Of a stretch of DNA of 35,537 nt, positions 8,391 to 33,616 are shown one piece after another (positions within the stretch are counted from its first letter, which is position 1; each line of letters starts with the position of its first letter). Location of the stretch: positions 1 to 35,537 of the IMG/VR virus record IMGVR_UViG_3300031950_000253. One strand, written 5' to 3'. This stretch comes from a virus. The translations under genes were made by a program, and so were the position numbers. Below the pieces are notes generated by a model. The model was given only the letters and a program-made list of their open reading frames with translations. It did no database searches and was not told the origin of the DNA.

Positions 8391-9272
8391 TTACACTCTG
8401 AATTGCGCGACAGCCGTAGTATAATCAAACGCACCACTAGGCGCACTCGTCCCTACTCTGAGTGTATAGGGATTGCCGGATGGGGGGAGAGAAAGCGAAC
8501 TAGCTTGATAAGCACCAGGTGCCACCTCCGTGAAATTCGTTGTTATCAGTGTGTTTGCGTTATCTCTAAGTTCCAAGTATGCTGCCAGTCCAGTAATAGG
8601 GATATACAAATCGCCCGCACCACGCGAGTAAAGCGCATAAATAAGAGCTTGTAGGGTAGTGGCATTTCCTGAAAGCAAAATGCGCGCCGCAATTCCCGGC
8701 ACATAATTAAGCAACCCTGCGTCTGCAAACACTGGCACAAGCTCAAAGTCCATCAGGCTCTGGGCAAAGTCAAAAGAAAACTCGTATTTTGTAATAGTCG
8801 CATCGGAGGGGAAAAGTAGCCGTACCTGTACTGTGCCTGGCTCTATCGGGATAGGAGCGGCTTCATTGACGCTAACACGTCGCCCCCAAACCACCCCGGC
8901 GTCATCAATCAAAAACACCCCCAGTCGCGACACACACCGAAGCTGCTCTATGTTTATCCCCCACTCAGCCGGAGGCTTGGCCACAAGTGCTTTGAAAGTG
9001 CGCGGCTGGTGCCGAACAAAAAACTTCGTCCCAGACAGCTCCTCAAAAACCGCCTCCGGCCGCTCACTCTCTACATTGTAGAGAATAGGCGTCATGAGCC
9101 GACGGGCATTTGGGTAAAGCGCGCTTGTCAAAAGATTAAAATCCTCCGGAGTAGAAGAATTTTCAAGCACCCTCTCAAACGCTATCCTTCGGATAGGCCG
9201 CAGTACCGGATGGCAGTCCGGTATCCCAAGCGCCCATAAGGGCTGGCTGCACCTACACTGCATTAAGCTCAT
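8391..9272 (-). CDS. Probable major tail (tube) protein
   Basis: This 293-residue protein lies between the neck genes and the tape measure gene, the usual place of the tail tube protein. It is beta-rich with few charged helices. The C-terminal ~90 residues (ITGLAAYLELRD, then NFTEVAPGAY and YTLRVG) look like an added Ig-like beta-sandwich domain, as seen on some tube subunits. The N-terminus has CRCSQP. The start at 9272 overlaps the upstream gene by 20 bases; a second ATG three codons on is possible. No sequence motif proves the assignment, and it could instead be another virion beta protein. Confidence 0.45.
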   Translation of the reverse strand: MSLMQCRCSQPLWALGIPDCHPVLRPIRRIAFERVLENSSTPEDFNLLTSALYPNARRLMTPILYNVESERPEAVFEELSGTKFFVRHQPRTFKALVAKPPAEWGINIEQLRCVSRLGVFLIDDAGVVWGRRVSVNEAAPIPIEPGTVQVRLLFPSDATITKYEFSFDFAQSLMDFELVPVFADAGLLNYVPGIAARILLSGNATTLQALIYALYSRGAGDLYIPITGLAAYLELRDNANTLITTNFTEVAPGAYQASSLSLPPSGNPYTLRVGTSAPSGAFDYTTAVAQFRV

Positions 9273-13100: not shown

Positions 13101-13108
13101 TATATTTG
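13101..13108 (+). promoter_or_regulatory. Promoter -7 element of the portal unit
   Basis: TATATTTG is an exact match to TAnnTTTG and ends 5 nt before the ATG at 13114. It diverges from the TATCTTTG element at 13090-13097. A -33 TTTG is not apparent. Confidence 0.6.
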
Positions 13109-20365: not shown

Positions 20366-21070
20366 ATGAGCAGCAATTTCCTGTACCGTATGGAACAAAA
20401 AGAGCTTTATGAAGAATACCAAGCCAAGGAACGCGCGAATGAGATTGCGAGATGCTTAGTATATGAGTCGTTCCAGATAATAGAGCGCGCTCCGAAGCAG
20501 GATTGGCGCAAAAGTGTTGTTTTAGCTTTTGCCAATCTAATCCGGACAAAAGACATTTTGGCCGATTCGTTTGAGAAGATCCGGCAAGAGCTATACGATC
20601 AAACAAAGAAAAGGTTTTCAGCATTTGGTTGTTCTGATGAAGCAATTGAAGCTGCTGCTTATGAGGGCGAGTATAATGCAGAAACTTTTGTGCTTCCTAT
20701 AGAAATGGGAGAAGACTCTATCCACTACGGGTTTGTAGCGGAGATGTTTTTTATTTCCAATGTTTGGTTTGCCACGTTATATTACAGACGCGGGGTTGGT
20801 TGGCATATAGAGGGTATACAAGATGAGGAGTTTTTTCAGGATTATCCACGAGAAAGAGGGATAAAAGGTCTTATTTATGGCGTAATGCGACAGAAAATAG
20901 ATGTTTGGCGCGAAGCCCTGGAAAGGCGTGGGGTAAGTGTACGGGGCGTAGGGAGCTGGCTGGAAAAGTTGGAAAAGAATATAAATGATCCAGAGTGGCT
21001 TGACAAGGTAGAAAAGCTGATTCTGCAGGTAGATCATTTTGGGGTGCAGATAATTTCAGATGAAGCCTGA
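20366..21070 (+). CDS. Unknown protein preceding terL (234 aa)
   Basis: This protein is not recognised. It is acidic and helix-rich, with YEEYQAKERANEIARCLVYESF near the start, an aromatic central beta region (VWFATLYYRRGVGWHIEG) and charged helices at the end. The gene looks AT-richer than its neighbours by eye, which may mean separate acquisition. It has its own strong host-type promoter and is followed after 12 nt by terL, so it may be co-expressed with packaging. A small-terminase role is possible but unsupported by a motif. The ATG at 20366 fits the promoter; the alternative start 12 bases upstream would fall in the -7 box. Confidence 0.6.
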   Translation: MSSNFLYRMEQKELYEEYQAKERANEIARCLVYESFQIIERAPKQDWRKSVVLAFANLIRTKDILADSFEKIRQELYDQTKKRFSAFGCSDEAIEAAAYEGEYNAETFVLPIEMGEDSIHYGFVAEMFFISNVWFATLYYRRGVGWHIEGIQDEEFFQDYPRERGIKGLIYGVMRQKIDVWREALERRGVSVRGVGSWLEKLEKNINDPEWLDKVEKLILQVDHFGVQIISDEA

Positions 21071-21082
21071 GCGCCAAAGCTA

Positions 21083-22189
21083 ATGCAGATAACCCTCCGG
21101 ACGGCGAAGCGGGTGGCGGATTTTTTAGAGGCGAACCGCCATAAGCGCTATGTGATTTTGCGGGGCGGCACACGGGCGGGGAAAACCTATAACACCCTGA
21201 TCTACCTGCTGAAGCTTGCGCTGCAAGAGGGTAAGGACGTTGGTATTGTGGGTGCGCATTTGGTGCGTTTGAGGGAGACAGCGCTGCGGGACTTTGAGGA
21301 GATCGTCAAAGACCTGCCCCTCATAGACTACAATCGCAGCCTTTTGGTATTCACTTTCCCCAGCGGGGGGCGGATAAAGTTTTTCGGGGCAGACAAAGGC
21401 ATAAAGCTGCGTGGGGCGAAGCGGGATATTCTATTCATCAATGAGGCCAACGCGATAGACTTTGAGGTCTTTTCGGAGCTGGACGTACGGACTACGACGC
21501 AGGTGATTTTGGACTTCAATCCGACGGGCCGGTTTTGGATCACTGAGTTCATGGAGTCCCATCCGCACCCAGAATGGTTTGCGGAGGGTGTTTTCACCTA
21601 TCGGGACAATCCTTTTCTTTCGCCAGAGCATGTGCGGGCGATAGAGGCGAGGCAGGGGGATGTGCGTTGGTGGCGGGTTTTTGGAGAGGGTGAATGGGGC
21701 GAGGCCAGTGGTTTGGCGTGGTATAACTACGAAGTGGTGGATGCGCTGCCTGAGGGAGTCAAGCTGCTGGCGGTTGGTGTGGATTTTGGTTTTACGCGCT
21801 CCCCGACGGCGGTGGTGGGCGTGTGGAAACTGGGGCAAGATTTTTATGTGCGGGAGTTATTGTATCGGCATAATCTGCGGTTAGAGGAGCTGGGGGTGTT
21901 TTTGCGGCAGTACCGGGAGGCGTTGTATATAGTGGCGGACTCAGCCGAGCCAGACTTGATAGCAGCATTGCGTAGGCAGTATAATGTGCCGGTGGTGCCG
22001 AGTCGGAAGCTGGAGCTGAAAGCCAGCTTTGCGATGATAAACGCTGTTCGGGTTCGGGTAGTGGCTGGCTCAAATAACTTGCTGAATGAGGCGTATAAGC
22101 TGTGTTGGGACGGGGATCGGCTGCTTGGGGTAGATGATCATGCGATTGATGCGATGCGGTATGCGCTGCATGCGGTGATGGCAAAGTAA
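21083..22189 (+). CDS. terL: Terminase large subunit
   Basis: This 368-residue packaging motor has both expected domains. The ATPase domain carries Walker A GGTRAGKT (residues 28-35) and Walker B ILFINE (116-121), followed by a coupling region with DFNPTG. The RNase H-like nuclease domain starts with VGVDFGF (Asp234), continues with VADSAEPD and ends with DDHAIDAMRYAL, the usual acidic set. It is of the PBSX/Terminase_3 type and short for the family. Its last ~400 bases are overlapped on the other strand by the sigma-like reading frame. No separate small subunit could be identified with confidence. Confidence 0.9.
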   Translation: MQITLRTAKRVADFLEANRHKRYVILRGGTRAGKTYNTLIYLLKLALQEGKDVGIVGAHLVRLRETALRDFEEIVKDLPLIDYNRSLLVFTFPSGGRIKFFGADKGIKLRGAKRDILFINEANAIDFEVFSELDVRTTTQVILDFNPTGRFWITEFMESHPHPEWFAEGVFTYRDNPFLSPEHVRAIEARQGDVRWWRVFGEGEWGEASGLAWYNYEVVDALPEGVKLLAVGVDFGFTRSPTAVVGVWKLGQDFYVRELLYRHNLRLEELGVFLRQYREALYIVADSAEPDLIAALRRQYNVPVVPSRKLELKASFAMINAVRVRVVAGSNNLLNEAYKLCWDGDRLLGVDDHAIDAMRYALHAVMAK

Positions 22190-22928
22190 TGGCTTCGGTC
22201 GAGGTGTTTTCGGCGGGCTGGTCTGTACCTTGTTGCCCCCAAGGGACCAGTATGCGAGCTAGAGTCTTTTCTCGCATGCCGCAAGCAACGGCCGCGTGCT
22301 TTTGGCCTAGCTGTTTAGCGAGTTCGGTGGCGACACGGACAAAGGATTCGGCGATATCGGAGGTTAGGGTTACAGGAGCTGTATCGGGTTCCTCTTCTTC
22401 TTTCTCTTCCTCACTAATGCCATACACATCTTCCATGATGTAGAAATCTTCATGGGGTGTAACCGTGGCTGGGGAGTTGTATTGTTTTCGCCAATAGGCG
22501 GTAATTACTCGGCGCAGGACTTGCTGGGCGACCCGAAAAAGGTGTTCTTCATCTTGGACTTCGTAGGTGCACACTGCCAAAATCGCTTCCTGAGCGAGGT
22601 CTTCGGCCGTCATGCGATCCTTAGTTTTGGCGTAGGCGGCTTTTATGAGCAAGCTGCGGAGCTTTTGGAAGGTTTTGGGGTTGTCAATCATTTGAGCGGT
22701 GGTAGCTACGATGGGAGCTAACGCCCGACTGGCAGAAGGCAGTTGCTTAGTGGTGTACTTGGTGTTTTCATGCTGGAGAGCGCGACGGGCTCTTTCCCCG
22801 AGTGGCTTAGGTTCAACGTGGCTGAAATCTAAATTGATAGCGAGCCGGCAAGCCACATCGTTGGGTTGGAGGCCCCAGAGGGTGGCCAGAGTGGCCACGC
22901 CGTTGTCGAGGTGTGCGCGCGATACCAT
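21792..22928 (-). CDS. Sigma-factor-like transcription protein with antisense C-terminal extension
   Basis: This is a 378-residue reading frame. Residues ~88-150 resemble sigma-70 region 2: a helix, DRMTAEDLAQEAILAV, then EEHLFRVAQQVLRRVITAYWRKQY. An acidic linker follows, and residues ~195-228 (ELAKQLGQKHAAVACGMREKTLARI) could be a region-4-like helix-turn-helix, though weakly. From about residue 247 the frame lies antisense to terL and is low-complexity (Pro, Ser, Ala, His), so the functional protein may effectively end before it. The ATG at 22928 is chosen because TACCTTTG lies 7 nt upstream with a TTG 18 bp further. It could direct host RNA polymerase to the repeated elements of the rightward accessory region. 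Other DNA-binding proteins could share the helix pattern. Confidence 0.5.
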   Translation of the reverse strand: MVSRAHLDNGVATLATLWGLQPNDVACRLAINLDFSHVEPKPLGERARRALQHENTKYTTKQLPSASRALAPIVATTAQMIDNPKTFQKLRSLLIKAAYAKTKDRMTAEDLAQEAILAVCTYEVQDEEHLFRVAQQVLRRVITAYWRKQYNSPATVTPHEDFYIMEDVYGISEEEKEEEEPDTAPVTLTSDIAESFVRVATELAKQLGQKHAAVACGMREKTLARILVPWGQQGTDQPAENTSTEAITLPSPHAAHTASHQSHDHLPQAADPRPNTAYTPHSASYLSQPLPEPEQRLSSQSWLSAPASDSAPPAHYTAYAMLLSSLARLSPPLYTTPPGTAAKTPPAPLTADYADTITPAHKNLAPVSTRPPPPSGSA

Positions 22929-22935
22929 ATCGGGA

Positions 22936-22964
22936 CAAAGGTACGAAGTTTTTGACAATTGCAA
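22936..22964 (-). promoter_or_regulatory. Promoter of the sigma-like gene
   Basis: On the minus strand, TTG (22964-22962), an 18-bp spacer and TACCTTTG (22943-22936) give a good Bacteroidota-type promoter. The ATG starts 7 nt after it, so host polymerase should make this regulator. Confidence 0.7.
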
Positions 22965-23282: not shown

Positions 23283-23311
23283 TAAAGGTATGGCATTTTT
23301 TCGTACCTTTG
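23283..23311. promoter_or_regulatory. Divergent promoter elements/possible operator at the XRE gene
   Basis: The minus-strand TACCTTTA (23290-23283) serves the XRE gene. A plus-strand TACCTTTG lies at 23304-23311. Together they form an inverted repeat AAAGGTA-N13-TACCTTT, which could also be the binding site of the XRE protein. No -33 TTTG is obvious on either side. Confidence 0.5.
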
Positions 23312-23351
23312 TCTTGGCAGGCCGGAGGTTCTGCCGCGCATACCAAATCCG

Positions 23352-23372
23352 CCCCCGCAAGGGGGTGTTTCT
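23352..23372 (+). terminator. Hairpin ahead of repeat element 1
   Basis: CCCCC-GCAA-GGGGG followed by TGTTTCTT is a short intrinsic-terminator-like hairpin. It separates the plus-strand TACCTTTG promoter from repeat element R1. The T tail is imperfect, so termination may be partial. Confidence 0.5.
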
Positions 23373-23382
23373 TATTTGGGCG

Positions 23383-23414
23383 AAAAGTGTGCGCGTCCAG
23401 ACATTAATAAGGGC
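23383..23414 (+). promoter_or_regulatory. Repeated promoter-like element R1
   Basis: This is the first of eight copies of an element with AAAAGTGTGCGCG, then ACATTAATA, ending directly at a start codon. Here the ATG (23415) follows 28 nt after the G of GTGTGCG, three less than in six other copies. It drives a family A gene. Confidence 0.7.
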
Positions 23415-24029
23415 ATGACTGGGGTGCAAAAGACACGAGAGGAAAAGCGGAAAGAGTTTTTACAAGAGGTTAGGGGTGAGCTTGATCGCTTAATACATTC
23501 TCACAGTTTTGGTGTCAGAGTAGTACGGGCTTGTGTTGCGGCTGAGATTGAGTTACTAATCGAGGATCGGTTTATAGGGGCGGTGGAAGTGCACCGGTTC
23601 GCGTACAGGGCGCTTTGTCAGACGAAAACCCAAGTTGATCCAGAAGTCTTTCATGAGGCTTTGTGCGTATTTGACCTTGGGGCTTTTGCTAATAGTCTAT
23701 GGGTACATTTCACTTATTTCAGGGAAGATGAGCAAGATATAATCTATCAGATTTGGCATGAGCGAAAAGATTTTTTACCCAACCTTGACGATGTTTTTCT
23801 TGTGATCTTTGATTTGGTTCTGCGCGTGAGGGGAGAAAGAAATCTTGGCTTGGGGTTTTATTACGCCCTAAAAAGACCTAACGGCATGTATGCAACTTTT
23901 GGGGAATCCTTTTTGTACCATGACAAGTGTATTGGTCATGTTTTGAGTGAAAAGGCAATGAAAAGGCTAAAAGATATATTCCGTGCGTATGTACGGGAGC
24001 GAAAAGGGGGCGCTGGGCGAAGGCCATAG
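23415..24029 (+). CDS. Family A paralog 1, unknown function
   Basis: This 204-residue helical protein of unknown function is one of three family A members here (with 24076-24687 and 26791-27429). Shared landmarks are an N-terminal helix (KEFLQEVRGELDRL), DLGAFANSL near residue 95, IWHERKDFLPNL near residue 115, and a C-terminal KRLKDIFRAYVRER helix. No catalytic pattern, signal peptide or membrane segment is seen. The start at R1 is preferred over an earlier in-frame start, which would place the repeat inside the gene. It reads AT-richer than the structural genes. The C-terminal end overlaps no neighbour, but R2 follows within 15 bases. Confidence 0.65.
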   Translation: MTGVQKTREEKRKEFLQEVRGELDRLIHSHSFGVRVVRACVAAEIELLIEDRFIGAVEVHRFAYRALCQTKTQVDPEVFHEALCVFDLGAFANSLWVHFTYFREDEQDIIYQIWHERKDFLPNLDDVFLVIFDLVLRVRGERNLGLGFYYALKRPNGMYATFGESFLYHDKCIGHVLSEKAMKRLKDIFRAYVRERKGGAGRRP

Positions 24030-24043
24030 TCGTCAGTTGTCTA

Positions 24044-24075
24044 AAAAGTGTGCGGGGGCAGACATTAATAAGGGC
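24044..24075 (+). promoter_or_regulatory. Repeated promoter-like element R2
   Basis: This copy carries GTGTGCG at 24048 and ACATTAATA, and its spacing to the ATG (24076) is 28 nt, as in R1. The GGGGGCA in the middle shows that the bases between the two conserved blocks can vary. Confidence 0.7.
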
Positions 24076-24687
24076 ATGACTGATGTGCAAAAGCCAAAAG
24101 AAGACCGACTAAAAGAGTTTCTACAAGAGATTAGGCAAGAGCTTGATTGCGTGGTGCGGCCGCGCGAGCTTTTTGGCGCAATAGTCTGTATGCATGTTGA
24201 AAAGGTAATTGAGCTACTGGTGCAGGGGAAATGGTCGGATGCACGGGAAAAGCTAGGATTGGCCTGTAAAACCCTTGCTCAGGCGAAAGCACACGCTATC
24301 CCAGAGGACTTTAACCAAGCGCTATATGCCTTTGATCTCGGTTTTTTTGCATATAGTTTAGAATCATATCTTTATGAGTTTGAGTTTATAGTCAGGCAAA
24401 TCTGGCATGAGCGAAAAGTTTTTTTGCCTCATCTTGCCGAAGCGCTCAGGGGTGCATATCTATTTGCAGCCTATTTGCGCAATGGCTGCTCTCCGAGATG
24501 GTCTTTTTATCATGCCCTAAAAAGCCTTAACTATATGCGATTGATTTTGGGGCATTATGCCGTGAATGGAACCTGTCCCATAGTTCATTTTTTGGCAGGA
24601 GCGGCGATGACTAAACTGAAAGATATACTACGAGCTTATGAGCGAGCACGTAGCAGCAGTCAGGACGCCGTGAGTAACCGGCAGTAG
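24076..24687 (+). CDS. Family A paralog 2, unknown function
   Basis: This 203-residue paralog is the nearest relative of the preceding gene. It has the same opening MTxVQK and KEFLQEIRQELD helix, DLGFFAYSLESYL, IWHERKVFLPHL, and a C-terminal MTKLKDILRAYERAR helix. The similarity continues at DNA level into the R elements, so the pair arose by tandem duplication of promoter plus gene. The function is unknown; it appears soluble and all-helical. A longer frame begins 93 bases upstream, but the R2-linked ATG is preferred. Confidence 0.65.
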   Translation: MTDVQKPKEDRLKEFLQEIRQELDCVVRPRELFGAIVCMHVEKVIELLVQGKWSDAREKLGLACKTLAQAKAHAIPEDFNQALYAFDLGFFAYSLESYLYEFEFIVRQIWHERKVFLPHLAEALRGAYLFAAYLRNGCSPRWSFYHALKSLNYMRLILGHYAVNGTCPIVHFLAGAAMTKLKDILRAYERARSSSQDAVSNRQ

Positions 24688-24690
24688 CCC

Positions 24691-24725
24691 AAAAGTGTGC
24701 ACATACAGACATTAATAGGCTTGAT
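24691..24725 (+). promoter_or_regulatory. Repeated promoter-like element R3
   Basis: The most divergent copy: AAAAGTGTGCACATACAG, then ACATTAATA, with the standard 31-nt distance from GTGTGC to the ATG at 24726. It leads a three-gene unit (family B, then two family C genes). Confidence 0.65.
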
Positions 24726-25277
24726 ATGACTGCGAGTAAGAATGTGGGCCAAAGCCCTAAGAGAAGCGAGACGCCTTTATGGCGTCGGAAGACGAACTAC
24801 GTGCTTAGAGAGCTGGTACGGATGTGGCATGGCCGGCCGTATGACTCGGCGGTGAGTTGGGGTTTTCGGTATGCACTGGACGACATCCTGCACACGTTCG
24901 CCAAGGAGAACGACTTGCCTATCCCCAAGCTGTTTTTCTGGTTTGAGCGCTTTTGGGAAAAATATTCTGGGTACTTGGGCGAACGGGTTTTTACGGCTCT
25001 TGATAGGAGCAAACTTATGGATATTCTGCTTCGTGGCTTCCCCCCATCCCGAGCTGAGCTATGTAAAAGATTTCTCTATGACCAAAGCGTGTACGGCATA
25101 ATGCATTTGTATAGTGTGCTTTTTCTCTGGGAGGTTGGCAGAGGCAATCGTGTTTTGTGTTACAAGCGAGAGAAATGGCCGTTGGGGTATTATGAGTCGT
25201 TAGAAGTGGCGCCGCTGGACTCTTTCGTCATTTGGCAGGTGAAGCGCATGTTGAACGAACAAAGCGACCCCCAATAA
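24726..25277 (+). CDS. Family B paralog 1, unknown function
   Basis: This 183-residue protein of family B shares the N-terminal signature W-R-x-K-x-N-Y-x-x-RELxRxWxG (here LWRRKTNYVLRELVRMWHG at about residue 18) and a C-terminal P-x-x-YYE-x-L motif (WPLGYYESLEV) with 27464-28030 and 28152-29102. The middle is helical and aromatic with no visible active site. It starts directly behind R3 and is followed after 3 nt by a family C gene, so the two are made together. The function is unknown. Confidence 0.6.
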   Translation: MTASKNVGQSPKRSETPLWRRKTNYVLRELVRMWHGRPYDSAVSWGFRYALDDILHTFAKENDLPIPKLFFWFERFWEKYSGYLGERVFTALDRSKLMDILLRGFPPSRAELCKRFLYDQSVYGIMHLYSVLFLWEVGRGNRVLCYKREKWPLGYYESLEVAPLDSFVIWQVKRMLNEQSDPQ

Positions 25278-25280
25278 CGT

Positions 25281-25547
25281 ATGTACTACATAGTAGAAAG
25301 CGAAGGCCTAAGGGAGCGCTGGCTGTTTAGGCTGTATCAGAACGCCTGCATGGCTGCCTTGGAGCTGGCGCAACGAACGCCTCACGAGGTCAGGGTCGTC
25401 CGGCTGGCGACGTCGGCCGGTTTGGGTAGGCAGATTATGTGCGTGTATAACTGCAAATACGAGGTTAGCGCCTCCCCGCCGCCCATTCAGGTAGAAGAAG
25501 AAGAGGAGGCGGGTAAAAGAAGGTATAGGCGGAAGCGAAATAAGTAA
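25281..25547 (+). CDS. Family C paralog 1, small unknown protein
   Basis: This 88-residue protein begins MYYIVES, continues with a helix (NACMAALELAQR) and the strand HEVRVVRL, and ends in an acidic run followed by a very basic tail (KRRYRRKRNK). It is related to the next gene, which shares MxYxVES, the A-x-ELA-x-x-T helix and HEVRV. The small alpha/beta core plus basic tail might bind nucleic acid, but this is a guess. It starts 3 nt after the family B gene ends. Confidence 0.6.
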   Translation: MYYIVESEGLRERWLFRLYQNACMAALELAQRTPHEVRVVRLATSAGLGRQIMCVYNCKYEVSASPPPIQVEEEEEAGKRRYRRKRNK

Positions 25548-25559
25548 CTTAGCGAAGGT

Positions 25560-25760
25560 ATGCATTACAGGGTGGAAAGTGGGGCGCTGCCACGAGCTCG
25601 GACGTTTAGGAACTTCGAAAAAGCTACCTCCTTTGCCAGAGAACTCGCTAAAAAGACTACCCATGAGGTACGGGTCATAAGTGTAGGCGCAAGTTACACA
25701 TTTGACAATCGGACGCTGTACATCTTCAACAAAGGCGGCAGCTTACCCAGTCCTAAATAG
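25560..25760 (+). CDS. Family C paralog 2, small unknown protein
   Basis: This 66-residue protein is a clear relative of 25281-25547, with MHYRVESGAL, ATSFARELAKKTTHEVRVIS and a final strand ending NKGG. It lacks the acidic/basic tail of its neighbour. It starts 12 nt after that gene and runs 18 bases into the converging methylase gene. The function is unknown. The shared core (about 60 residues) marks the minimum conserved domain of the family. Confidence 0.6.
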   Translation: MHYRVESGALPRARTFRNFEKATSFARELAKKTTHEVRVISVGASYTFDNRTLYIFNKGGSLPSPK

Positions 25761-26714
25761 GCCGGCACAAAGGTTTTGCGGGGGAAAGTTTAGATACAGT
25801 GTCTCCGTCCGGGGTACATGAGCTTTTGCAGCTCCAGCACCTTGTAGCCTGCTTCCTCGTATTTTGCCCGCTATGTGGCAGGCGGTTTCCCTTGTCAGCT
25901 TGCGCCATCCAGCCTTGGCGAGAGGGCTATAAACGGGATGGTCATAACAGGAAAGCAAAACCTTTCCCTTTGCCGCTAAGATAGTCTCTACAAGGCGCTC
26001 ATGGTAGGCTACGTCGGGTTCGTTCTTGTAGAGACGGCGGTCTTTTCGGGTGTCTGGCACATAAGGCGGATCAATGTAGAACACAGTCTCTGGCGTGTCC
26101 CAGTACTTGATGCACTCAATGCCATCGATGCAGTCTATTTGCACCCTGCTGAGGCGCCCATGCCAAAAGCTAAGGAGCTTTAGGCGACTGCGCCACCTGC
26201 TGGTGTTTCCAGCCCTGCCATTGGTTATGGTGTATATTTCTCGTCCCCAATCACCTGAAACTTTCGCCTTACCGCCAAACCCCTGATTTTGCTTGACGAA
26301 GAAGCCCCATGCCCTATCTATATCGGTAGCGTTAGGGTCTTTGACTATTTGGAGGGCACGGGCAAACTCTGCACGGGCGTAGGGCGTAAATATCAGCCTG
26401 TGCGCCAGTTCCTCAAACTTGCCCTTGTCCTGCAATACCCGATACAAATTGACAATATCGCCGTCCAAGTCATTCAGCACTTCTACGGGAAAGGGACTTG
26501 GCAAATGCCAAAGGACGGAGGCGGCTCCTGCGAACGGCTCCACATAAATCTGTCCAGCGGGGACGTACTGGACAACCCACGTTGCAAGCTTTCCTTTCCC
26601 GCCAGCCCACCGGAAGGGCGCCATAGGGCGGGGTGGTATGGGGATGCCGTCCAGAAATTCCTTTTTCAGCCCCGCAATGGCTTCGTATAGCCCATTCTGA
26701 GTGGTGGTACCCAT
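25743..26714 (-). CDS. DNA adenine N6-methyltransferase, Dam/D12 class
   Basis: This 323-residue enzyme should methylate adenine in DNA using S-adenosylmethionine. The D12-class motifs are visible in order: FRWAGGKGKL (residues 34-43), the SAM-binding EPFAGAAS (59-66), and the catalytic DPPY (215-218), with the usual NQGFGGK between them. It could protect phage DNA from host restriction or tune gene expression. No partner endonuclease is seen, so it is an orphan. The ATG at 26714 is chosen because TATCTTTG lies 6 nt upstream; an earlier in-frame start would run through element R4. It is the only leftward gene in the accessory region. Confidence 0.85.
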   Translation of the reverse strand: MGTTTQNGLYEAIAGLKKEFLDGIPIPPRPMAPFRWAGGKGKLATWVVQYVPAGQIYVEPFAGAASVLWHLPSPFPVEVLNDLDGDIVNLYRVLQDKGKFEELAHRLIFTPYARAEFARALQIVKDPNATDIDRAWGFFVKQNQGFGGKAKVSGDWGREIYTITNGRAGNTSRWRSRLKLLSFWHGRLSRVQIDCIDGIECIKYWDTPETVFYIDPPYVPDTRKDRRLYKNEPDVAYHERLVETILAAKGKVLLSCYDHPVYSPLAKAGWRKLTRETACHIAGKIRGSRLQGAGAAKAHVPRTETLYLNFPPQNLCAGLFRTG

Positions 26715-26720
26715 ACCACA

Positions 26721-26744
26721 CAAAGATAAGCCCCTTGCAGGGGC
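26721..26744 (-). promoter_or_regulatory. Promoter and inverted repeat at the methylase gene
   Basis: The minus-strand TATCTTTG (26728-26721) is an exact -7 element, 6 nt before the ATG. Directly upstream lies the inverted repeat GCCCC-N5-GGGGC (26730-26744). It falls between the -7 and the expected -33 positions, so a protein bound there would block the promoter. As RNA it could also be a hairpin ending rightward transcripts. Confidence 0.55.
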
Positions 26745-26755
26745 CGGCGAAGGCA

Positions 26756-26790
26756 AAAAGTGCGCGCCCTCAGACATTAATAGTACCGAT
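26756..26790 (+). promoter_or_regulatory. Repeated promoter-like element R4
   Basis: AAAAGTGCGCGCCCTCAG, then ACATTAATA, with GTGCGCG 31 nt before the ATG at 26791. It is divergent from the methylase promoter, and an inverted repeat separates the two. Confidence 0.7.
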
Positions 26791-27429
26791 ATGCTAACCG
26801 AAGAGCTCAAAGAAAAGAAGCAAAAGCTGCTGCGTTTGATTCAGGACGAGGTGGAGCATATCATCAAAAACTATCCCGTGTTTTTGCCTGATGTGGGAAA
26901 ATTTGTGGCAGAAACCCTCGTATTGTTGCAAAGTGAGGAACACCAAAAAGCTTGGTTTGCCCTTTGGCAAAAAGCTTGGTCTCTCCTTTGGGATGCTTAT
27001 CAATGTCTACTCCCAGCCATTAAGGTCAATTATTTATATCGGTTCGCTTCTGAGTCGTTACTCGAAAAAGTTAAGAATGAACTTATCATACTAGACCTTG
27101 GCATTTTTGCTTACCGATTAGAAGGTTCGTTTTTACAGCTCCACGCGGCGGTGCCGTACCTTTGGGATAAGCGAAAAAACTTTTATCCACATCTGTCGAG
27201 CGCATTGCGCGCTACATACTGGTTTCTTTGCTTGATAGAAGCGGGTTGGGAATTAGAGGAGGCGATTGCTGATGCTCTGAGTATTTGTAATGAACTACAT
27301 GATGCCTTTGGGGATGTGTTTTACTACCGCCAAAAAAACATAAGCGAGCTTCTACCCCCCGACGCGTTAGCGACGTTGAGACAAATACTGCTGGATATAT
27401 ACAGCAAACGCCAAGGATGCAAAAGGTGA
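26791..27429 (+). CDS. Family A paralog 3, unknown function
   Basis: This 212-residue protein is the most divergent family A member. It keeps an N-terminal helix (KLLRLIQDEVEHII), DLGIFAYRLEGSF, LWDKRKNFYPHLSSAL and a C-terminal LATLRQILLDIYSKR helix. The middle has a duplicated local DNA motif (AAAAAGCTTGG twice near 26950-26980), probably a slippage event. The function is unknown. It lies between R4 and R5, which overlaps its stop codon. Confidence 0.65.
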   Translation: MLTEELKEKKQKLLRLIQDEVEHIIKNYPVFLPDVGKFVAETLVLLQSEEHQKAWFALWQKAWSLLWDAYQCLLPAIKVNYLYRFASESLLEKVKNELIILDLGIFAYRLEGSFLQLHAAVPYLWDKRKNFYPHLSSALRATYWFLCLIEAGWELEEAIADALSICNELHDAFGDVFYYRQKNISELLPPDALATLRQILLDIYSKRQGCKR

Positions 27430-27463
27430 AAAGTGCGCGCCCTCAGACATTAATAGTACTGAT
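27429..27463 (+). promoter_or_regulatory. Repeated promoter-like element R5
   Basis: This copy is almost identical to R4 (AAAAGTGCGCGCCCTCAG, then ACATTAATA), again 31 nt from GTGCGCG to the ATG at 27464. It overlaps the last base of the previous stop codon. Confidence 0.7.
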
Positions 27464-28030
27464 ATGAAAACGCATGGAGAAAACCTCGGCTCCCGGAAGG
27501 TTGAGCCAGAGATGCAAAACCTGCCCCAGTGGCGGTTGTACGCAAACTTCCTGCTTCGTGAGTTGGCCCGCCTATGGTATGGCCAAAAAAGCATTTTTGA
27601 CCTCCAGCATGGCTATGGCCCGGACTCCCCATTTTGGCGGGACTTCGTTTTTCTTTTTGACCAAATGGTCGTGCTTTTCGGAGAGAAAAATTATCTTGTG
27701 GCTTGGGGTATGGATGATCGCCTTCATGAGGCTATTAGGGGATGGCGGATGTGGCACGGCATGGACCCAGTTTTTAGTCAGCCCTATTTTGAGGCCAAGT
27801 GGCGAGCGATTCAAAGGTTGGGGAGTGAGATAGCGCAAAAGCTGTTTGACGACTTTGATGTTGATGTAATCCTAAGCTTTGCTGGGTATGCCTATGGTCT
27901 TGCCCGCAGAGGCCAAAAGCCGCCATTCGACTTTCCCGTAAGGTTCAATCCCCTTGAGTATTTTGAGGCCTTGCCGGTCGATCCGGAGTTAGAGGATCGG
28001 TACTATAATGATAAGCCGTTGCCTTTTTAG
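27464..28030 (+). CDS. Family B paralog 2, unknown function
   Basis: This 188-residue family B protein opens MKTHGENLGSRKVEPE, nearly the same as the next gene, and carries QWRLYANFLLRELARLWYG at about residues 22-40. It ends with a P-x-EYFE-x-LPV motif (NPLEYFEALPV). The near-identical first ~25 codons of this gene and 28152-29102, plus R5/R6, show recent duplication or gene conversion. The central ~120 residues differ, so only the flanks are under shared constraint. The function is unknown. Confidence 0.65.
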   Translation: MKTHGENLGSRKVEPEMQNLPQWRLYANFLLRELARLWYGQKSIFDLQHGYGPDSPFWRDFVFLFDQMVVLFGEKNYLVAWGMDDRLHEAIRGWRMWHGMDPVFSQPYFEAKWRAIQRLGSEIAQKLFDDFDVDVILSFAGYAYGLARRGQKPPFDFPVRFNPLEYFEALPVDPELEDRYYNDKPLPF

Positions 28031-28066
28031 CTCTTTTGATATTGTTGGGCTATGCGAGGCATATCC

Positions 28067-28092
28067 CCCCCACCTTCGGGTGGGGGTTTTCG
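28067..28092 (+). terminator. Strong intrinsic terminator
   Basis: An eight-pair stem (CCCCCACC with GGTGGGGG) closed by the stable tetraloop TTCG, followed by TTTT, at 28067-28090. It ends the family B unit starting at R5, and R6 begins 25 bases later. Confidence 0.85.
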
Positions 28093-28116
28093 TTTCCATC
28101 CATCCCGTCCTCTAAG

Positions 28117-28151
28117 AAAAGTGTGCGCGGTCAAACATTAATAGGAGTGAT
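28117..28151 (+). promoter_or_regulatory. Repeated promoter-like element R6
   Basis: AAAAGTGTGCGCGGTCAA, then ACATTAATA, with GTGTGCG 31 nt before the ATG at 28152. It comes directly after a strong terminator, as expected for a promoter starting a new transcript. An in-frame TAA just upstream shows that this element is not translated. Confidence 0.75.
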
Positions 28152-29102
28152 ATGACGACGCATGGAGAAAACCTTGGCTCCCGAAAGGTTGAGCCGAAAA
28201 CGCAGAACCAGCCTTTGTGGCGATTGAAGGCGAACTATCTGATGCGGCAATTGGCGCGTATTTGGTATGGCAAGCTCCTCGGTCGCGGCTACGCCAAAAG
28301 CTCAGAGTTTGAACGCCTCTTCATCGAGATTATGTGCCAGTTTGTGGAAGACCACGGTGGCAATGGCAAAGATGTGTTGCATTGGATTGAATTTGGCAAG
28401 CAGGCATTTGAGGTTGTACATGGAAAGGAGATCACATTTAAGAATCGGATTAGCGAGTTGGATTGGATGATTAGGAATGGTGTCCCGAAGGAACTGCGTG
28501 AGGAGTTTGCAAAGGATGCGCTGATCCAAGACATAATCAGAACAGCTGAATGGATATTGAATTATGAGGAGGAGGGAGAAGAACCGCCGTATGAGCCTAC
28601 TATTTGGCTGAGGCCGCTGGATTATTATGAGCAACTTCCGGTAGAGGAGCCGCCGCCCCAGTGGAAGTTAGTGGCGAACCACGTTCAACGTGAGCTGGCA
28701 CGTGTGTGGTATGGGAAAACCCGTATAGCGCCGTGGCACCTGCATGATTATTTGACCGGACTTTTTTATTCCTTTGTTTTTGGTAGCGGTATAAAACCGA
28801 AAGATTTTGACATAACACTGACTGGTACCCAAGCCGAGTTTGAAGAACAGCATGGTTGCGAACTTTCTTTCAACACGCCCGTACAGGAAATAATTTGGCT
28901 GGCCGATAAGTGCCTTCCGGAAGATTTGGCGGCAAAATTTTTGTCTGACCCACAGGTTAAGTTTATTTTGACAGCGGGCGAGCTTATTTGGGCACTCATT
29001 AGAGCGGACGTCAACCCGCCGTACGAAAAATATAGCATCAGCTTCAGGCCGATTGAGGAGTACGAAAACCTGCCGGTTTCCAACGATGAGCAGACCCTCT
29101 AA
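28152..29102 (+). CDS. Family B paralog 3, two-domain tandem duplication
   Basis: This 316-residue protein contains two family B units in one chain. Unit 1 has PLWRLKANYLMRQLARIWYG near residue 21 and ends IWLRPLDYYEQLPV. Unit 2 starts PQWKLVANHVQRELARVWYG near residue 172 and ends ISFRPIEEYENLPV. Each unit is about 150 residues, the size of the other family B proteins without their leaders. Both units end with an acidic or polar linker. The double form suggests that family B proteins act as dimers or bind a repeated target. The function is unknown. R7 begins at its stop codon. Confidence 0.7.
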   Translation: MTTHGENLGSRKVEPKTQNQPLWRLKANYLMRQLARIWYGKLLGRGYAKSSEFERLFIEIMCQFVEDHGGNGKDVLHWIEFGKQAFEVVHGKEITFKNRISELDWMIRNGVPKELREEFAKDALIQDIIRTAEWILNYEEEGEEPPYEPTIWLRPLDYYEQLPVEEPPPQWKLVANHVQRELARVWYGKTRIAPWHLHDYLTGLFYSFVFGSGIKPKDFDITLTGTQAEFEEQHGCELSFNTPVQEIIWLADKCLPEDLAAKFLSDPQVKFILTAGELIWALIRADVNPPYEKYSISFRPIEEYENLPVSNDEQTL

Positions 29103-29136
29103 AAAGTGTGCGCGCTCAGACATTAATAGTAGCGAT
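29102..29136 (+). promoter_or_regulatory. Repeated promoter-like element R7
   Basis: AAAAGTGTGCGCGCTCAG, then ACATTAATA, is the best match to the consensus. The distance from GTGTGCG to the ATG at 29137 is 31 nt. It leads the unit that contains the annealing-protein and exonuclease genes. Confidence 0.75.
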
Positions 29137-29445
29137 ATGAGACGGATAGTTTTCCTGAATGCGTACGACCTTCTGACGCTGGTTTCGCAGTGTCCGAAGT
29201 GGCGGCTGATGACGGCCTACCGGGATTTCGTGGATCGGGAGCCGGTAGCTTACATTGCGGCACGGCCGCAGGAACGTGAGGCCGCTGAAGATGTGCGTCA
29301 GATTTTTAGGGGCGCGGTGATAGAAGACCCGCGCACATTGCAGGCGCGTGGGCGTATAAATGACGCCGAGGAGCTGGCGCTTTTGACCACAGACCTTGAT
29401 TTGGGGCTAAAGCTGATAGTGCTGAAAAAAATCAAAAATGCATAG
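29137..29445 (+). CDS. Small unknown protein, first gene of the recombination unit
   Basis: This 102-residue alpha/beta protein (MRRIVFLNAYDLL, then ARPQEREAAEDVRQIF, ending LDLGLKLIVLKKIKNA) has no recognised family. The start is fixed by R7. It overlaps the next gene by 8 bases, so it is co-translated with the putative annealing protein and may be its partner; this is inference from position. Confidence 0.6.
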   Translation: MRRIVFLNAYDLLTLVSQCPKWRLMTAYRDFVDREPVAYIAARPQEREAAEDVRQIFRGAVIEDPRTLQARGRINDAEELALLTTDLDLGLKLIVLKKIKNA

Positions 29446-30109
29446 GCGTATGACGAAGCGAGAACTGGCCAAGAAGAAGGCCGAAGCGGTAATCCTGGCG
29501 AATGCGCACAGGTTGTATTTTGTCCCTCAGCGGGCTGGGGGCTACGTAGCCGAGCTGACCCGTGAAGTCGCAGCCGAACTATGGGCGGCGTTGTCAGACA
29601 TAGCCCACATGCGGCAGAATGTTTCGGTTATTAGCGGGGATGCGGATTATGTGGTGGTCAGCTGCCGCATAGAGGTTATGGCGGATGATTGGCGAGTGGA
29701 GGTAGAGGATATCGGCGAGGCTTGGGCAAAAGAGTTCGCAGAGAAACAGCGCGGGAAGGAAAAGCAGGCTGATAACAAGCCTGCCCAAGCATCAGCGACG
29801 GAGGACGGGGAAAGTAAAAATGATGGGGCCATGCGGCACCGGATGTATCGGACGGCGTCGACGCGAGCGATAAAGCGGGCGATAGAGTTGCTTGTGGGCG
29901 ACCTAAATAGCTTGCTGAAAGGTTTGGCGGTGCTTTATGGGTACAAGCAGGCGAATAACAAAGGCGCACTGAAGGCGTTCCCCCCAGCAGCCGCACCCGT
30001 AATTCGTGCGCTTGGAGCCGGCGAGATAGGGGTGAATGAAGCTATCAAAGGACTTGCCGCAGTTGTAAGCAATGGACAAACCGAAAAGAGCCATGCGGGT
30101 GAAGCTTAG
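29438..30109 (+). CDS. Putative single-strand annealing (ERF/Rad52-like) protein
   Basis: This is a 223-residue protein. Residues ~60-100 have strands with DADYVVVSCRIEV, followed by a conserved-looking DIGEAW, then after a variable linker RTASTRAIKRAIELLVG (138-154). Strand pairs followed by a TRAxxRA-type helix resemble the core of ERF/Rad52-type annealing proteins. The next gene is a RecB/Cas4-like exonuclease, and such annealing protein-exonuclease pairs are common phage recombination modules. A second ATG four codons in is also possible. The similarity is weak and could mislead; a general single-stranded DNA-binding role is the main alternative. Confidence 0.4.
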   Translation: MHRRMTKRELAKKKAEAVILANAHRLYFVPQRAGGYVAELTREVAAELWAALSDIAHMRQNVSVISGDADYVVVSCRIEVMADDWRVEVEDIGEAWAKEFAEKQRGKEKQADNKPAQASATEDGESKNDGAMRHRMYRTASTRAIKRAIELLVGDLNSLLKGLAVLYGYKQANNKGALKAFPPAAAPVIRALGAGEIGVNEAIKGLAAVVSNGQTEKSHAGEA

Positions 30110-30968
30110 TATAGAGGCCCCTGGGGTGCGGGGCGCATTGATTTTTAAGGGTGAAACGTCGGATGTGGGCAAGCAGCTGCGGCAGTTTGTCGAGCTTTTC
30201 CTTCCGGTGGAAGCTGTAACAGCCCAGCCCCCTACCCCGGTGCTGGCGGGGTCTGACGTCAAAAAGGTAGAGGAGGCGGTAGCGGCGGAGGTTAAAGAAG
30301 CGTCTCTTGCCGCCAAGTCAGAGCTTGCGTACCTTTCATTCAGCACCTTGGCATTGCTTTTCCGGTGTGCGCATGCTTTCCATCTGAAGCTGGCAGGTAT
30401 CAAACCGCCGCCGTCGGAAGACCAGAAGATCGGCACGGATTTTCATGCAGGCATAGCCGCGTTTTTGCGAGGGGGAGAGTATGCATTTGAGTACCCGCAA
30501 AATGAGGTGCGGTTTGGGCACATAAAGGAGCTTCTTTCTACGCTTAGGCAGGCACCGGACTTAGCTTTAGAGCCTCGTGAGATGCTGGAAGCTGGCGGGG
30601 TAGAGTGGGTTGGCTATGCTGACGCTATCGCGAACGGAACCATATATGAGTTCAAGGCCACGAAGCGGTTGCCTACGGCGCCAACAGATGCACATGCCTT
30701 GCAGGCGTCGGTATATGCGGCGATGTTTGGGGCGGATAAGGCTAAGATAGTCTATGTTACCGAAAAGGAGGAGCGAGAGTTTGACGTAGCGCCTTTTGCT
30801 GGGGTGCGGGAGTTTCTGGCGGATATGGCAAGCCAGATAAAGGCTGGTGTGCCTAACATCCCGACGGGGCTAACGCATCCTTGGGGTTGCGACCGATGCG
30901 AATACCGGCCGCATTGCAGGTTTTATGACTTTGTGCGGGGCAATGGGATTGCAGAGATACCATTCTGA
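30072..30968 (+). CDS. Cas4/RecB-like PD-(D/E)xK exonuclease
   Basis: This 298-residue nuclease should resect DNA ends for phage recombination. Visible motifs, in order, are Cys99 in SFSTLALLFRC, GTDFHAG with His125, Asp184 in VGYADAI, Glu193 and Lys195 in YEFKATK, Gln211 in the QASVYA helix, and CDRCEYRPHC giving Cys273, Cys276 and Cys282. One N-terminal and three C-terminal cysteines are the iron-sulfur cluster set of Cas4-like nucleases. The first ~80 residues are a separate, partly beta domain. It overlaps the putative annealing gene by 38 bases. There is no CRISPR array, so a Cas4 role in adaptation is unlikely. Confidence 0.85.
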   Translation: MDKPKRAMRVKLSIEAPGVRGALIFKGETSDVGKQLRQFVELFLPVEAVTAQPPTPVLAGSDVKKVEEAVAAEVKEASLAAKSELAYLSFSTLALLFRCAHAFHLKLAGIKPPPSEDQKIGTDFHAGIAAFLRGGEYAFEYPQNEVRFGHIKELLSTLRQAPDLALEPREMLEAGGVEWVGYADAIANGTIYEFKATKRLPTAPTDAHALQASVYAAMFGADKAKIVYVTEKEEREFDVAPFAGVREFLADMASQIKAGVPNIPTGLTHPWGCDRCEYRPHCRFYDFVRGNGIAEIPF

Positions 30969-30993
30969 AAGCCGTTGTATATCGCCGAAGTTT

Positions 30994-31019
30994 GGGGCGG
31001 CCTTGGGCCGCCCCGCTTT
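30994..31019 (+). terminator. Hairpin terminator after the exonuclease gene
   Basis: A nine-pair GC-rich stem (30994-31002 with 31006-31014, loop TTG) is followed by GCTTTGG. The T tail is short. It separates the recombination unit from R8, which starts only 6 bases later. Confidence 0.65.
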
Positions 31020-31024
31020 GGTAA

Positions 31025-31059
31025 TTAAGTGTGCGCGCTCAAACATTAATAAGGGTGAT
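31025..31059 (+). promoter_or_regulatory. Repeated promoter-like element R8
   Basis: TTAAGTGTGCGCGCTCAA, then ACATTAATA, with GTGTGCG 31 nt before the ATG at 31060. The leading A-run differs from the other copies, but both core blocks are intact. It drives the small gene and the helicase. Confidence 0.7.
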
Positions 31060-31341
31060 ATGGAACGGGTACAAGTTTGGCTGACAAACGAAGAAAGCAG
31101 CCGCTCGGTGCATGAGCACTTTGGTCAGATTGTAGAAGCGTACATCCCGGCGCGAACGGAGTTTTTGGGCGAATGTGAGGCAACGCCGGAGGCGGTGGCG
31201 GAGCTGGCAGATGTGGATGCAGATGAAGCAGCCGAAGCGTTGGCCAGCCCCGGAGAGCCGTTACTTGTAGGTGAGTTGTATCAGGGGGATGTTTCGGCGG
31301 CGCTTTACCTTGTGGTCTATCCATCGCCGGACAGTAAATGA
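31060..31341 (+). CDS. Small unknown acidic protein before the helicase
   Basis: This 93-residue acidic protein has an N-terminal strand (MERVQVWLTNEES), a helical middle rich in Ala/Glu/Asp and a C-terminal beta pair (LLVGELYQGDVSAALYLVVY). No family is recognised. The start is set by R8. It overlaps the helicase by an ATGA, suggesting a stoichiometric partner of that enzyme. Confidence 0.6.
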   Translation: MERVQVWLTNEESSRSVHEHFGQIVEAYIPARTEFLGECEATPEAVAELADVDADEAAEALASPGEPLLVGELYQGDVSAALYLVVYPSPDSK

Positions 31342-32990
31342 GCGAGCTTGATTTTGGGAAGCTCTCTCTGGCTGATTATGCCCAGCTTTTTCGGTTAGGG
31401 GCTGTGGCGGCGCGCCGGGGAGAGCTTCTCATTTCGCTCAGCGCAGAGCTGGACGTGCTGGTTTCCGGCCGCACCTATGAGTACCGGGATAGAATAAAGG
31501 GGATAGCGCGTGAAGCAGGGGCGTCTGCTTTCTGGGATGGCCATAAGTGGGTTATCCGCACGCTACGGCACCCAAACGTGTTGGGTAAAGTGCTTAGTGG
31601 CCTGACAAAGCTACCGGAAGCCAAGCTGGCACTAAATCCAGACTTTGGAAAACGGCACCTGCCTAAGTTGGAAATCCCCCCACTGGGTGGATATACTCTG
31701 TTTCCGTTTCAGATAGAAGGCATCAGCGTTATTGTGGAAACCTTTCGGCGGGGCGTGAAGAGTTTTTTGCTGGCTGACGAAATGGGGCTGGGGAAGACCA
31801 TACAGGCCTTGGGGGTTGCTAAGGTGCTAGGGCTGGAAGCGGTGGTGATAGCTCCGGCCTCTGTGGTGCCAAGCTGGCAAGAAAAAGCGCAGGAGTGCGG
31901 GATAGTGGCGGAGGTTTTTAGCTACGCCAAAGCTGATAGGGCAAAAGCGGCTGGCAAAATGCTGATCATTGACGAAGCGCATTACATAAAGAATAAAAGC
32001 GCTCAGCGAACGAAAGCGGTTCGGCGCTTAGTAAATGAAGCGGAGAAGGTTTTAGCACTTACAGGCACGCCGCTCCTGAACCGCATAGATGAGTTGGCCA
32101 ACCTTCTACATAACATTGGCATAATCAAAAGTGCCTCGCAGTTTTTGAGCCAGTACGCCAGTTGTAATTTGCGAAGCATCCGCACGAAGTATCGCACCAT
32201 CCAAAAACGGGTGTACTATTTGACGGGGGCGCAAGCTCGTATGGTGCATAAGCTTTTGACTACCGAGCTGCCTTACCTCCGTAGGCTCAAAAAAGATGTA
32301 ACGCTCCAGTTGCCTCGAAAAATCCGCACGCGGCTAACGCTGGAGGTGGATGCGCCCCAAGCCTCGGCGACCTTGCGGCTGGTGGCGGCGGAGTTCGCTC
32401 GAAAGCGCGGCATTGACCCGAAGCAGTTCGATACCCCAGCGGCGCTCGTGGAGTTTGTTTTTGACAGCATACCGCAGGCGGCGATAGCGACGGCTCGACG
32501 GCTATACGCGATAGCTAAGGCAACAGCCGCTGCCCAGTACATAGAAGACCTTTTGGGTAGTACGGATACCCCTATTGTGGTATTTTACCATCATGAGCAA
32601 GTACTAAGTGCCTTGCAGGAGTGCGTGCCCGGCCCCTACATAGACGGCTCAGTGCCGCAGGAGCGCCGCGCGGAGTTGGTTCGAGATTTCCAAGCGGGCA
32701 AGTATTGGGTGCTGTACCTTTCCATCACGGCGGCGGGACTGGGGATTACCCTTACGGCAGCGGATACGGCGGTTTTCGTGGAGTACGACTGGGTTCCGGC
32801 GAATCTATTACAGGCCGAAGACCGCATAAACCGCATCGGGCAAAAGAGCGAGGTTACTTACTATCACTATCTGACCACTAAAGACCCCGTGGAGCGGCTC
32901 ATTCTGGACAAGATTTTTGAGAAGGTATCCTTAGCCGAGGCCGTTTTGGGTGGGCAAAGCGGCCTGAAAGAGGCGCTAAAAACCGCATAG
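31338..32990 (+). CDS. SNF2-family helicase (SMARCAL1-like layout)
   Basis: This is a 550-residue superfamily 2 DNA-dependent ATPase. After an N-terminal ~115-residue region come the helicase motifs: the Q-like FPFQIEG, motif I ADEMGLGKT (146-154), motif II DEAH (212-215), motif III ALTGTP, and in the second lobe motif V AAGLGITL and motif VI RINRIGQ (496-502). The N-terminus (SGRTYEYRDRIKGIAREAGASAFWDGHKWVI) resembles the HARP-like region of annealing helicases. Such enzymes remodel replication forks or drive reannealing. It belongs with the exonuclease and putative annealing protein in a replication/recombination set. Its 3' end is also the first 28 bases of the window. Confidence 0.9.
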   Translation: MSELDFGKLSLADYAQLFRLGAVAARRGELLISLSAELDVLVSGRTYEYRDRIKGIAREAGASAFWDGHKWVIRTLRHPNVLGKVLSGLTKLPEAKLALNPDFGKRHLPKLEIPPLGGYTLFPFQIEGISVIVETFRRGVKSFLLADEMGLGKTIQALGVAKVLGLEAVVIAPASVVPSWQEKAQECGIVAEVFSYAKADRAKAAGKMLIIDEAHYIKNKSAQRTKAVRRLVNEAEKVLALTGTPLLNRIDELANLLHNIGIIKSASQFLSQYASCNLRSIRTKYRTIQKRVYYLTGAQARMVHKLLTTELPYLRRLKKDVTLQLPRKIRTRLTLEVDAPQASATLRLVAAEFARKRGIDPKQFDTPAALVEFVFDSIPQAAIATARRLYAIAKATAAAQYIEDLLGSTDTPIVVFYHHEQVLSALQECVPGPYIDGSVPQERRAELVRDFQAGKYWVLYLSITAAGLGITLTAADTAVFVEYDWVPANLLQAEDRINRIGQKSEVTYYHYLTTKDPVERLILDKIFEKVSLAEAVLGGQSGLKEALKTA

Positions 32991-33065
32991 CCATGCGTAC
33001 TGCCGTGATATGGGTTTTAGGCCTAATCCGTATCACGGCCAAAAGCGAACCTGTGGGGTTATGTG

Positions 33066-33073
33066 TATCTTTA
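33066..33073 (+). promoter_or_regulatory. Endolysin promoter -7 element (second copy)
   Basis: Repeat of the TATCTTTA element at 104-111, 3 nt before the ATG at 33077. In the circular molecule this is the same site. Confidence 0.55.
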
Positions 33074-33076
33074 CGC

Positions 33077-33616
33077 ATGGCCAACGTAAACCGCACCTTC
33101 GAGGTAGCGCTGGACTTCGTGCTTGCGCATGAGGGGGAACTTGCAAATCACCCATACGACCGAGGGGGCATGACCTACCGGGGCATTGCCCGGAAAGCGT
33201 GGCCTTTATGGGAAGGCTGGAAGTATATAGACGTGGGCGGGACGCCGCCTATGGAACTGGTACGAAAGTTTTACTACGAAAACTTTTGGGTGCCGCTCCA
33301 ATGTGATAAGCTTCCCGAACCCATAGCCATTTTCCTGTTTGATAGCGCTGTCGGGAGCGGTCATGTTTTGCCCACAAGGTGGCTCCAAAGGGCTATCGGC
33401 GCCAAAGATGATGGCATTGTGGGTCATGAAACAATCCAAAAAGCCCAGCAGGCCCGTCCTCAGGCCGTAGTGGATAGCATGCTGCGCCGGCGCATCCTGC
33501 TTTATGAACACATCGTGCGAAACGATAGCAAGCAGTACGCTTTCTTAGCAGGCTGGCTGCGGCGGACAATGAACCTGACTGCCCTGATTTACCGCCAGTA
33601 CATCCGGGAGCTTTAG
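33077..33616 (+). CDS. Endolysin, GH108-type (second copy in the overlap)
   Basis: Same gene as 115-654, shown again because the window wraps past the circle junction. Here its true left neighbour is visible: the helicase stop is 86 bases upstream, with the TATCTTTA promoter in between. Confidence 0.85.
   Translation: MANVNRTFEVALDFVLAHEGELANHPYDRGGMTYRGIARKAWPLWEGWKYIDVGGTPPMELVRKFYYENFWVPLQCDKLPEPIAIFLFDSAVGSGHVLPTRWLQRAIGAKDDGIVGHETIQKAQQARPQAVVDSMLRRRILLYEHIVRNDSKQYAFLAGWLRRTMNLTALIYRQYIREL

Follow-up and report, generated by a model that had tools for sequence, protein, structure and literature searches.

Repeated Start-Codon Elements in a Bacteroidota-Type Phage Suggest a Near-Leaderless Regulon Read by a Phage-Encoded Sigma-Like Factor

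Results and Discussion

Eight near-identical two-block elements, each ending at an ATG start codon, stand close to a gene for a sigma factor-like protein in the phage genome of IMG/VR record IMGVR_UViG_3300031950_000253, which we analyzed over its full 35,537 nucleotides (hereafter the window). We consider it probable that these elements are promoters recognized by host RNA polymerase bound to an extracytoplasmic function (ECF)-like sigma factor that the phage encodes, and that they govern a regulon of near-leaderless genes; the virus seems to have a gene-expression program of its own. The window holds a single complete circular genome read past its end: its first and last 2,575 bases (1-2575 and 32963-35537) form an exact direct terminal repeat, which sets the genome size at 32,962 bp. 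The terminase finds its best matches in phages of Bacteroides and Phocaeicola, and the host is probably a Bacteroidota bacterium. Other genes encode a primase-polymerase, an SNF2 helicase, a PDDEXK nuclease, a GH108 lysin, and a D12-class methylase.

Sequence and Position of the Elements

The consensus AAGTGYGCRNNNNCARACATTAATA has eight exact matches, all on the plus strand, and the count stays at eight when up to three mismatches are allowed; 100 dinucleotide shuffles gave 0 matches (expectation 0.00). All eight copies of the original prediction were thereby recovered, including its two spacings: the first G of GTGYGCG (block 1) lies 28 nt before the ATG in R1 and R2 and 31 nt before it in the six copies R3-R8, and the last conserved A lies 5 and 8 nt before it, respectively. 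The 25-nt cores start at 23385, 24046, 24693, 26758, 27431, 28119, 29104, and 31027. The complete plus-strand elements, with their 5-nt gap included, occupy 23382-23414 (R1, ATG at 23415) and 24043-24075 (R2, ATG at 24076); those with an 8-nt gap occupy 24690-24725 (R3, ATG at 24726), 26755-26790 (R4, ATG at 26791), 27428-27463 (R5, ATG at 27464), 28116-28151 (R6, ATG at 28152), 29101-29136 (R7, ATG at 29137), and 31024-31059 (R8, ATG at 31060). It is the combination of both blocks that distinguishes the element, not a single block; ACATTAATA alone does not stand out when one mismatch is allowed (9 matches vs. 5.3 expected).

Conservation in a Related Phage

A related viral contig, IMGVR_UViG_3300036768_001575 (26,423 bp; loci L010 and L012), encodes a terminase 90% and a sigma-like protein 62% identical to those of the window, and carries four elements (L1-L4) at contig positions 8702, 10922, 16087, and 18149. 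These precede the counterparts of the R3, R5/R6, R7, and R8 genes, with R3 having its ortholog at L010 8702, R6 its counterpart at L010 10922, R7 its ortholog at L010 16087, and R8 its ortholog at L012 11704. Within the four pairs, 95/112 element positions are identical (85%), compared with 75/224 (33%) in the 56 nt upstream and 188/240 in the first 60 nt of the gene, so that the element forms an island of conservation flanked by spacer and coding sequence that have diverged. Pooling both phages, the invariant AAGTG is preceded by two As in 11/12 copies, a conserved stretch slightly longer than first described. Block 1 reads GTGYGCR in 8/8 copies here and GTGTACG in 4/4 copies of the relative: one base has changed in concert, as would be expected if one trans-acting reader set the sequence of all copies.

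The same comparison bears on the idea that the elements are borders of recombination or duplication that spread gene cassettes and have no role in expression. Paralogs do lie downstream of R1/R2/R4 and of R3/R5/R6, and some elements begin directly after a stop codon; however, the R7 and R8 genes are unrelated to the other downstream genes, orthologous elements stay in place across two diverged phages, and the distance to the ATG is fixed, which leaves this explanation very improbable.

The exact form of the element has no match in viral_contigs, where relaxed forms match only the one relative; homologs of the terminase, the R6 protein, the sigma-like protein, the protein encoded at 29438, and the R5 family were absent from the same collection or came from the same contig only. 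Among prokaryotes, 84,980 species were scanned with one genome per species (genome_contigs). The single match, on a Lachnospiraceae contig, lies inside a coding frame with no ATG at the right place, and we dismiss it as chance. Rfam had no match in the window.

Placement at the Heads of Transcription Units

On the plus strand between 23.4 and 33.6 kb, an element is found at 8/8 genes with an upstream gap of at least 34 nt and at 0/6 genes whose gap is 12 nt or less or which overlap the preceding gene; elements are thus placed as promoters would be, at the heads of transcription units and never inside operons. R7 heads an operon with the 29438 gene and the PDDEXK nuclease gene, and R8 one with the SNF2 and lysin genes. 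The R5-family genes of the relative include a long operon whose single element stands in front of the first gene. A hairpin with a T tract lies before each of R1, R6, L1, and L3; the hairpins before R8 and L4 have weaker tails. On the plus strand, the terminator hairpin directly before R1 (23350-23372) reads CGCCCCCGCAAGGGGGTG followed by TTTCTT, that before R6 (28067-28096) reads CCCCCACCTTCGGGTGGGGG TTTTCGTTT, and the strong G+C hairpin before R8 (approximately 30994-31019; GGGGCGGCCTTGGGCCGCCCCGCTTT) combines a stem of -20 kcal/mol with a weak T tract. The terminators proposed earlier for R1, R6, and R8 are confirmed by these structures; the inverted repeat before R4 was confirmed as well.

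Other genes of the phage use a host-type box. TAnnTTTG lies 2-9 nt before an ATG at 9 sites (mean 2.0, maximum 7 in 200 shuffles; examples are at 13101, 15400, 20349, 14860, and 13097), and such boxes are over-represented in both phages, with 9 each against 2.0 and 1.3 expected. They stand before the starts of the sigma, methylase, and primase genes, the portal and terminase operons, and the first structural gene. No element contains a TAnnTTTG -7 box, and none of the 7 sites in the window that fit the Escherichia coli-type pattern TTGACA-16/18-TATAAT falls at an element. It had also been claimed that the elements are absent from structural and replication genes, which use TAnnTTTG instead; this holds in general, with the qualification that the genes for the SNF2 helicase and the GH108 lysin belong to the R8 operon.

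In Flavobacterium johnsoniae the -7 box lies 4-5 nt before the start site (PMC6847099), so that phage mRNAs driven by TAnnTTTG would be leaderless or nearly so; and since these boxes lie 2-9 nt before the ATG, ultra-short leaders would be usual across the genome, and the mRNAs of both phages would as a rule have little or no leader. The 5- or 8-nt gap between element and ATG falls within the same range, which would make block 2 the natural equivalent of a -7/-10 box.

The strict position before the ATG could also be that of a signal for translation: a start signal of the kind that cluster K mycobacteriophages have in their start-associated sequences, or the coding sequence of a short leader peptide (GTG TGC GCG xxC AGA CAT TAA TAR). 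Every copy has the six-codon frame with its two stops, and some gaps contain AGGG or GGAG. Yet a translation signal does not explain why the element is missing from genes inside operons, R3, R4, R5, and R7 have no stretch resembling a Shine-Dalgarno sequence, and conservation reaches up to 33 nt upstream of the ATG, beginning just past terminators in several copies. The CAT and TAA of block 2 are invariant in 12 copies, and changes elsewhere alter residues; without synonymous variation in the former and with residue-altering changes in the latter, there is no sign of a conserved peptide. We considered and rejected both a leader peptide and an N-terminal extension: the two frames are open in every copy (in L2 from the true start), but the invariant codons show no synonymous change, and the ATG frame offers no plausible start just upstream. 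A role in translation is therefore improbable, and all lines together support promoters over translation signals. Position at the heads of gene clusters, terminators, the conserved island, and the host-type distance to the ATG likewise lend support to the original proposal of a phage-specific promoter class that would leave almost no leader.

A Candidate Sigma Factor

Just upstream of the elements, and reading away from R1, lies a minus-strand gene (21792-22928, start ATG at 22928) for an ECF-like sigma factor. This gene, overlooked by the original prediction, probably encodes the reader of the elements. Pfam and NCBIfam place sigma-70 region 2 at approximately 22670-22485 (minus strand): taken as a domain alone, Sigma70_r2 (PF04542) scores 24.4 bits here and 27.5 in the relative, above the cut-off of 24, and over the whole protein 20.2 and 23.1 bits. 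The NCBIfam model of the ECF superfamily, TIGR02937, matches at this sole site in the genome with 26.8 bits (E 7e-8), below its curated cut-off of 42.9; nine and eleven NCBIfam models matched, every one a sigma factor, and the only solved structure matched by the protein is an RpoE chain (E 0.003). Between the two phages, 112/214 substitutions fall at third codon positions of the minus frame, which is therefore coding despite overlapping open reading frames (ORFs) on the plus strand. The last ~400 nt of the sigma ORF (21792-22189) are antisense to the terminase gene and open in both phages. A host-type -7 box, TACCTTTG, lies at 22936-22943 (minus strand), 7 nt before the sigma ATG, and the putative promoter TTG...TACCTTTG falls within a run of ~35 nt in which the two phages hardly differ.

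Two genes in the window have a recognizable transcription-regulator domain: the sigma gene, which is matched in the relative and is the only recognizable transcription initiation factor common to both phages, and an XRE-like regulator gene, which is not matched there. It is because of the linkage in both phages, the concerted base change, and the unmatched XRE-like gene that we connect the sigma gene with the elements. That the elements are instead operators, that is, repressor sites, of the XRE-like regulator (23341-23021) dispersed over the genome is suggested by the divergent arrangement of R1 and the regulator gene, but the relative keeps four elements without a match to the regulator, the elements, being one-directional, lack palindromic symmetry, and a fixed distance to the ATG is not required of operators; we regard this as a most unlikely explanation.

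Harder to set aside, though still unlikely, is that the elements are phage promoters read by an alternative sigma factor of the host, or by host polymerase with a phage activator bound to block 1, the phage sigma-like protein acting elsewhere. The arguments for promoters given above are independent of which factor reads them, no region 4 was detected in the phage sigma, and part of block 1 would fall in spacer DNA, close to the site at which activators of the T4 MotA type act. A reader encoded by the phage agrees better with a sigma-like gene kept beside the regulon in both phages and with the same base altered in all copies of one of them, although different hosts could explain the latter; the near absence of the element from the prokaryote genomes scanned also argues against a host factor.

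Several observations weigh against our preferred reading, in which the phage sigma-like protein is the reader. No profile matches region 4, the part that reads the -35 box, in the C-terminal piece; the structure model is of low confidence (predicted local distance difference test [pLDDT] 50), with three helices at 191-232, and a fold search with it gave no fold match. The spacing of the blocks is somewhat shorter than the typical ECF -35/-10 layout. Gene conversion could have caused the concerted change of the copies, the sigma-element comparison covers two genomes, and the 26.4-kb contig of the relative is probably a fragment, which makes the missing regulator there limited proof. The PDB matches of the model were unrelated helical proteins, and we discarded the model as too poor to use. 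Collections of phages and plasmids held no match to the sigma protein. A possible DNA-reading helix in its C-terminal part differs between the phages (MREKTLARIL vs. MREKTFSRYL), block 2 being unchanged; any bearing of this difference on how the elements are read is suggestive only.

Proposed Mechanism and Regulon

Host polymerase with a host sigma factor would transcribe the phage sigma gene early, from its TAnnTTTG promoter, and the phage sigma would then redirect the host polymerase to the eight elements, with block 1 (AAAAGTGYRCG) as the upstream contact and block 2 (CARACATTAATA) as a -10-like melting region. Transcripts would begin at the ATG or within a few nucleotides of it, yielding leaderless mRNAs or mRNAs with a leader of 0-3 nt. 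The regulon would comprise the accessory gene families R1/R2/R4 and R3/R5/R6, the R7 operon with its nuclease, of the Cas4-like PDDEXK type, and the R8 operon of helicase and lysin; as the latter ends in the lysin gene, we infer a middle-to-late timing. A stronger form of this proposal, that a hitherto undescribed, reduced ECF-class sigma consisting of region 2 and a short non-standard DNA-binding part reads a two-block promoter to give leaderless mRNAs, as an orthogonal transcription-translation program in Bacteroidota, is put forward tentatively, and we hold it to be somewhat doubtful.

Regulon Genes and Neighboring Loci

The R3/R5/R6-type proteins are all-helical (window 24726-25277 and 27464-29102), with three genes here and approximately eight in the relative (L010 8735-15206); a confident model (pLDDT 88) had no significant Foldseek match in PDB or among viral structures. 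Members of the R1/R2/R4 family (window 23415-24687 and 26791-27429) are 23-39% identical to each other; the relative holds no match to the family, and no Pfam model matches it above the cut-off. Reversed between R3 and R4 is the D12-class adenine methylase gene (25743-26714, minus strand), which has its own TATCTTTG box and a 78% match in the relative. At 23304-23372 on the plus strand, a terminator hairpin lies ~40 nt downstream of a TACCTTTG box, and the interval contains no ATG; the pair possibly marks a short non-coding transcript beside the XRE-like regulator gene. The gene before the terminase (20366-21070) has two homologs in the relative (L010 15324-15950 and 5752-5156), which lie far apart in opposite directions, one of them inside the regulon region.

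Comparison with Known Systems

Phage sigma factors with their own middle or late promoters are known from SPO1-type phages and from T4 (gp55/gp33). The arrangement proposed here resembles these in pairing a phage sigma with a set of near-identical promoters unused by the host sigma. SPO1-type phages and T4 differ in that they are large and virulent, infect Bacillota or enterobacteria, and have sigma factors of other groups, whereas the present phage has 33 kb, a terminase and promoters of Bacteroidota type, a sigma with an ECF-like region 2, and elements at the ATG. The T4 case is also described in PMC11598898.

Cluster K mycobacteriophages have repeated start-associated sequences (SAS) at start codons, with concerted shifts of consensus between subclusters (PMC3203893), and seven extended SAS (ESAS) in Adephagia hold putative promoters (PMC11373665). 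The likeness lies in repeats that stand before a subset of genes, are kept at orthologous genes, and shift their consensus in concert. SAS are 13-bp repeats whose Shine-Dalgarno core, AGGAG, lies at the ribosome site, whereas ESAS contain an inverted repeat of 17 bp together with SigA-like boxes; in the elements described here the conserved part stops 5-8 nt before the ATG, and none of these features is present. The accounts of SAS and ESAS used here link no sigma gene to them. The Bacteroidota primary promoter (TTTG/TAnnTTTG; PMC6847099) is used by other genes of this phage at the same distance to the ATG, whereas the elements lack its box. Leaderless genes elsewhere have TA-like boxes ~12 bp before the ATG (PMC3160421); block 2, at 5-20 nt before the ATG, is placed like those -10 boxes, but the elements also have an upstream block that is strictly conserved, and they are confined to one gene set.

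If our reading is true, the system would offer a sigma factor with its cognate promoters to a phylum in which orthogonal expression tools are few. It would also be a natural test case for leaderless translation in a setting that makes little use of Shine-Dalgarno sequences, and the one-base change in all copies would give a view of a sigma and its promoters changing together. The open-access literature yielded no ECF-like phage regulon with start-codon promoters in a small Bacteroidota phage, although such a regulon may exist elsewhere. Phage sigma factors with dedicated promoters are already known, and what is seen here is the combination of a sigma-like gene with elements placed at start codons, in a small phage of Bacteroidota type.

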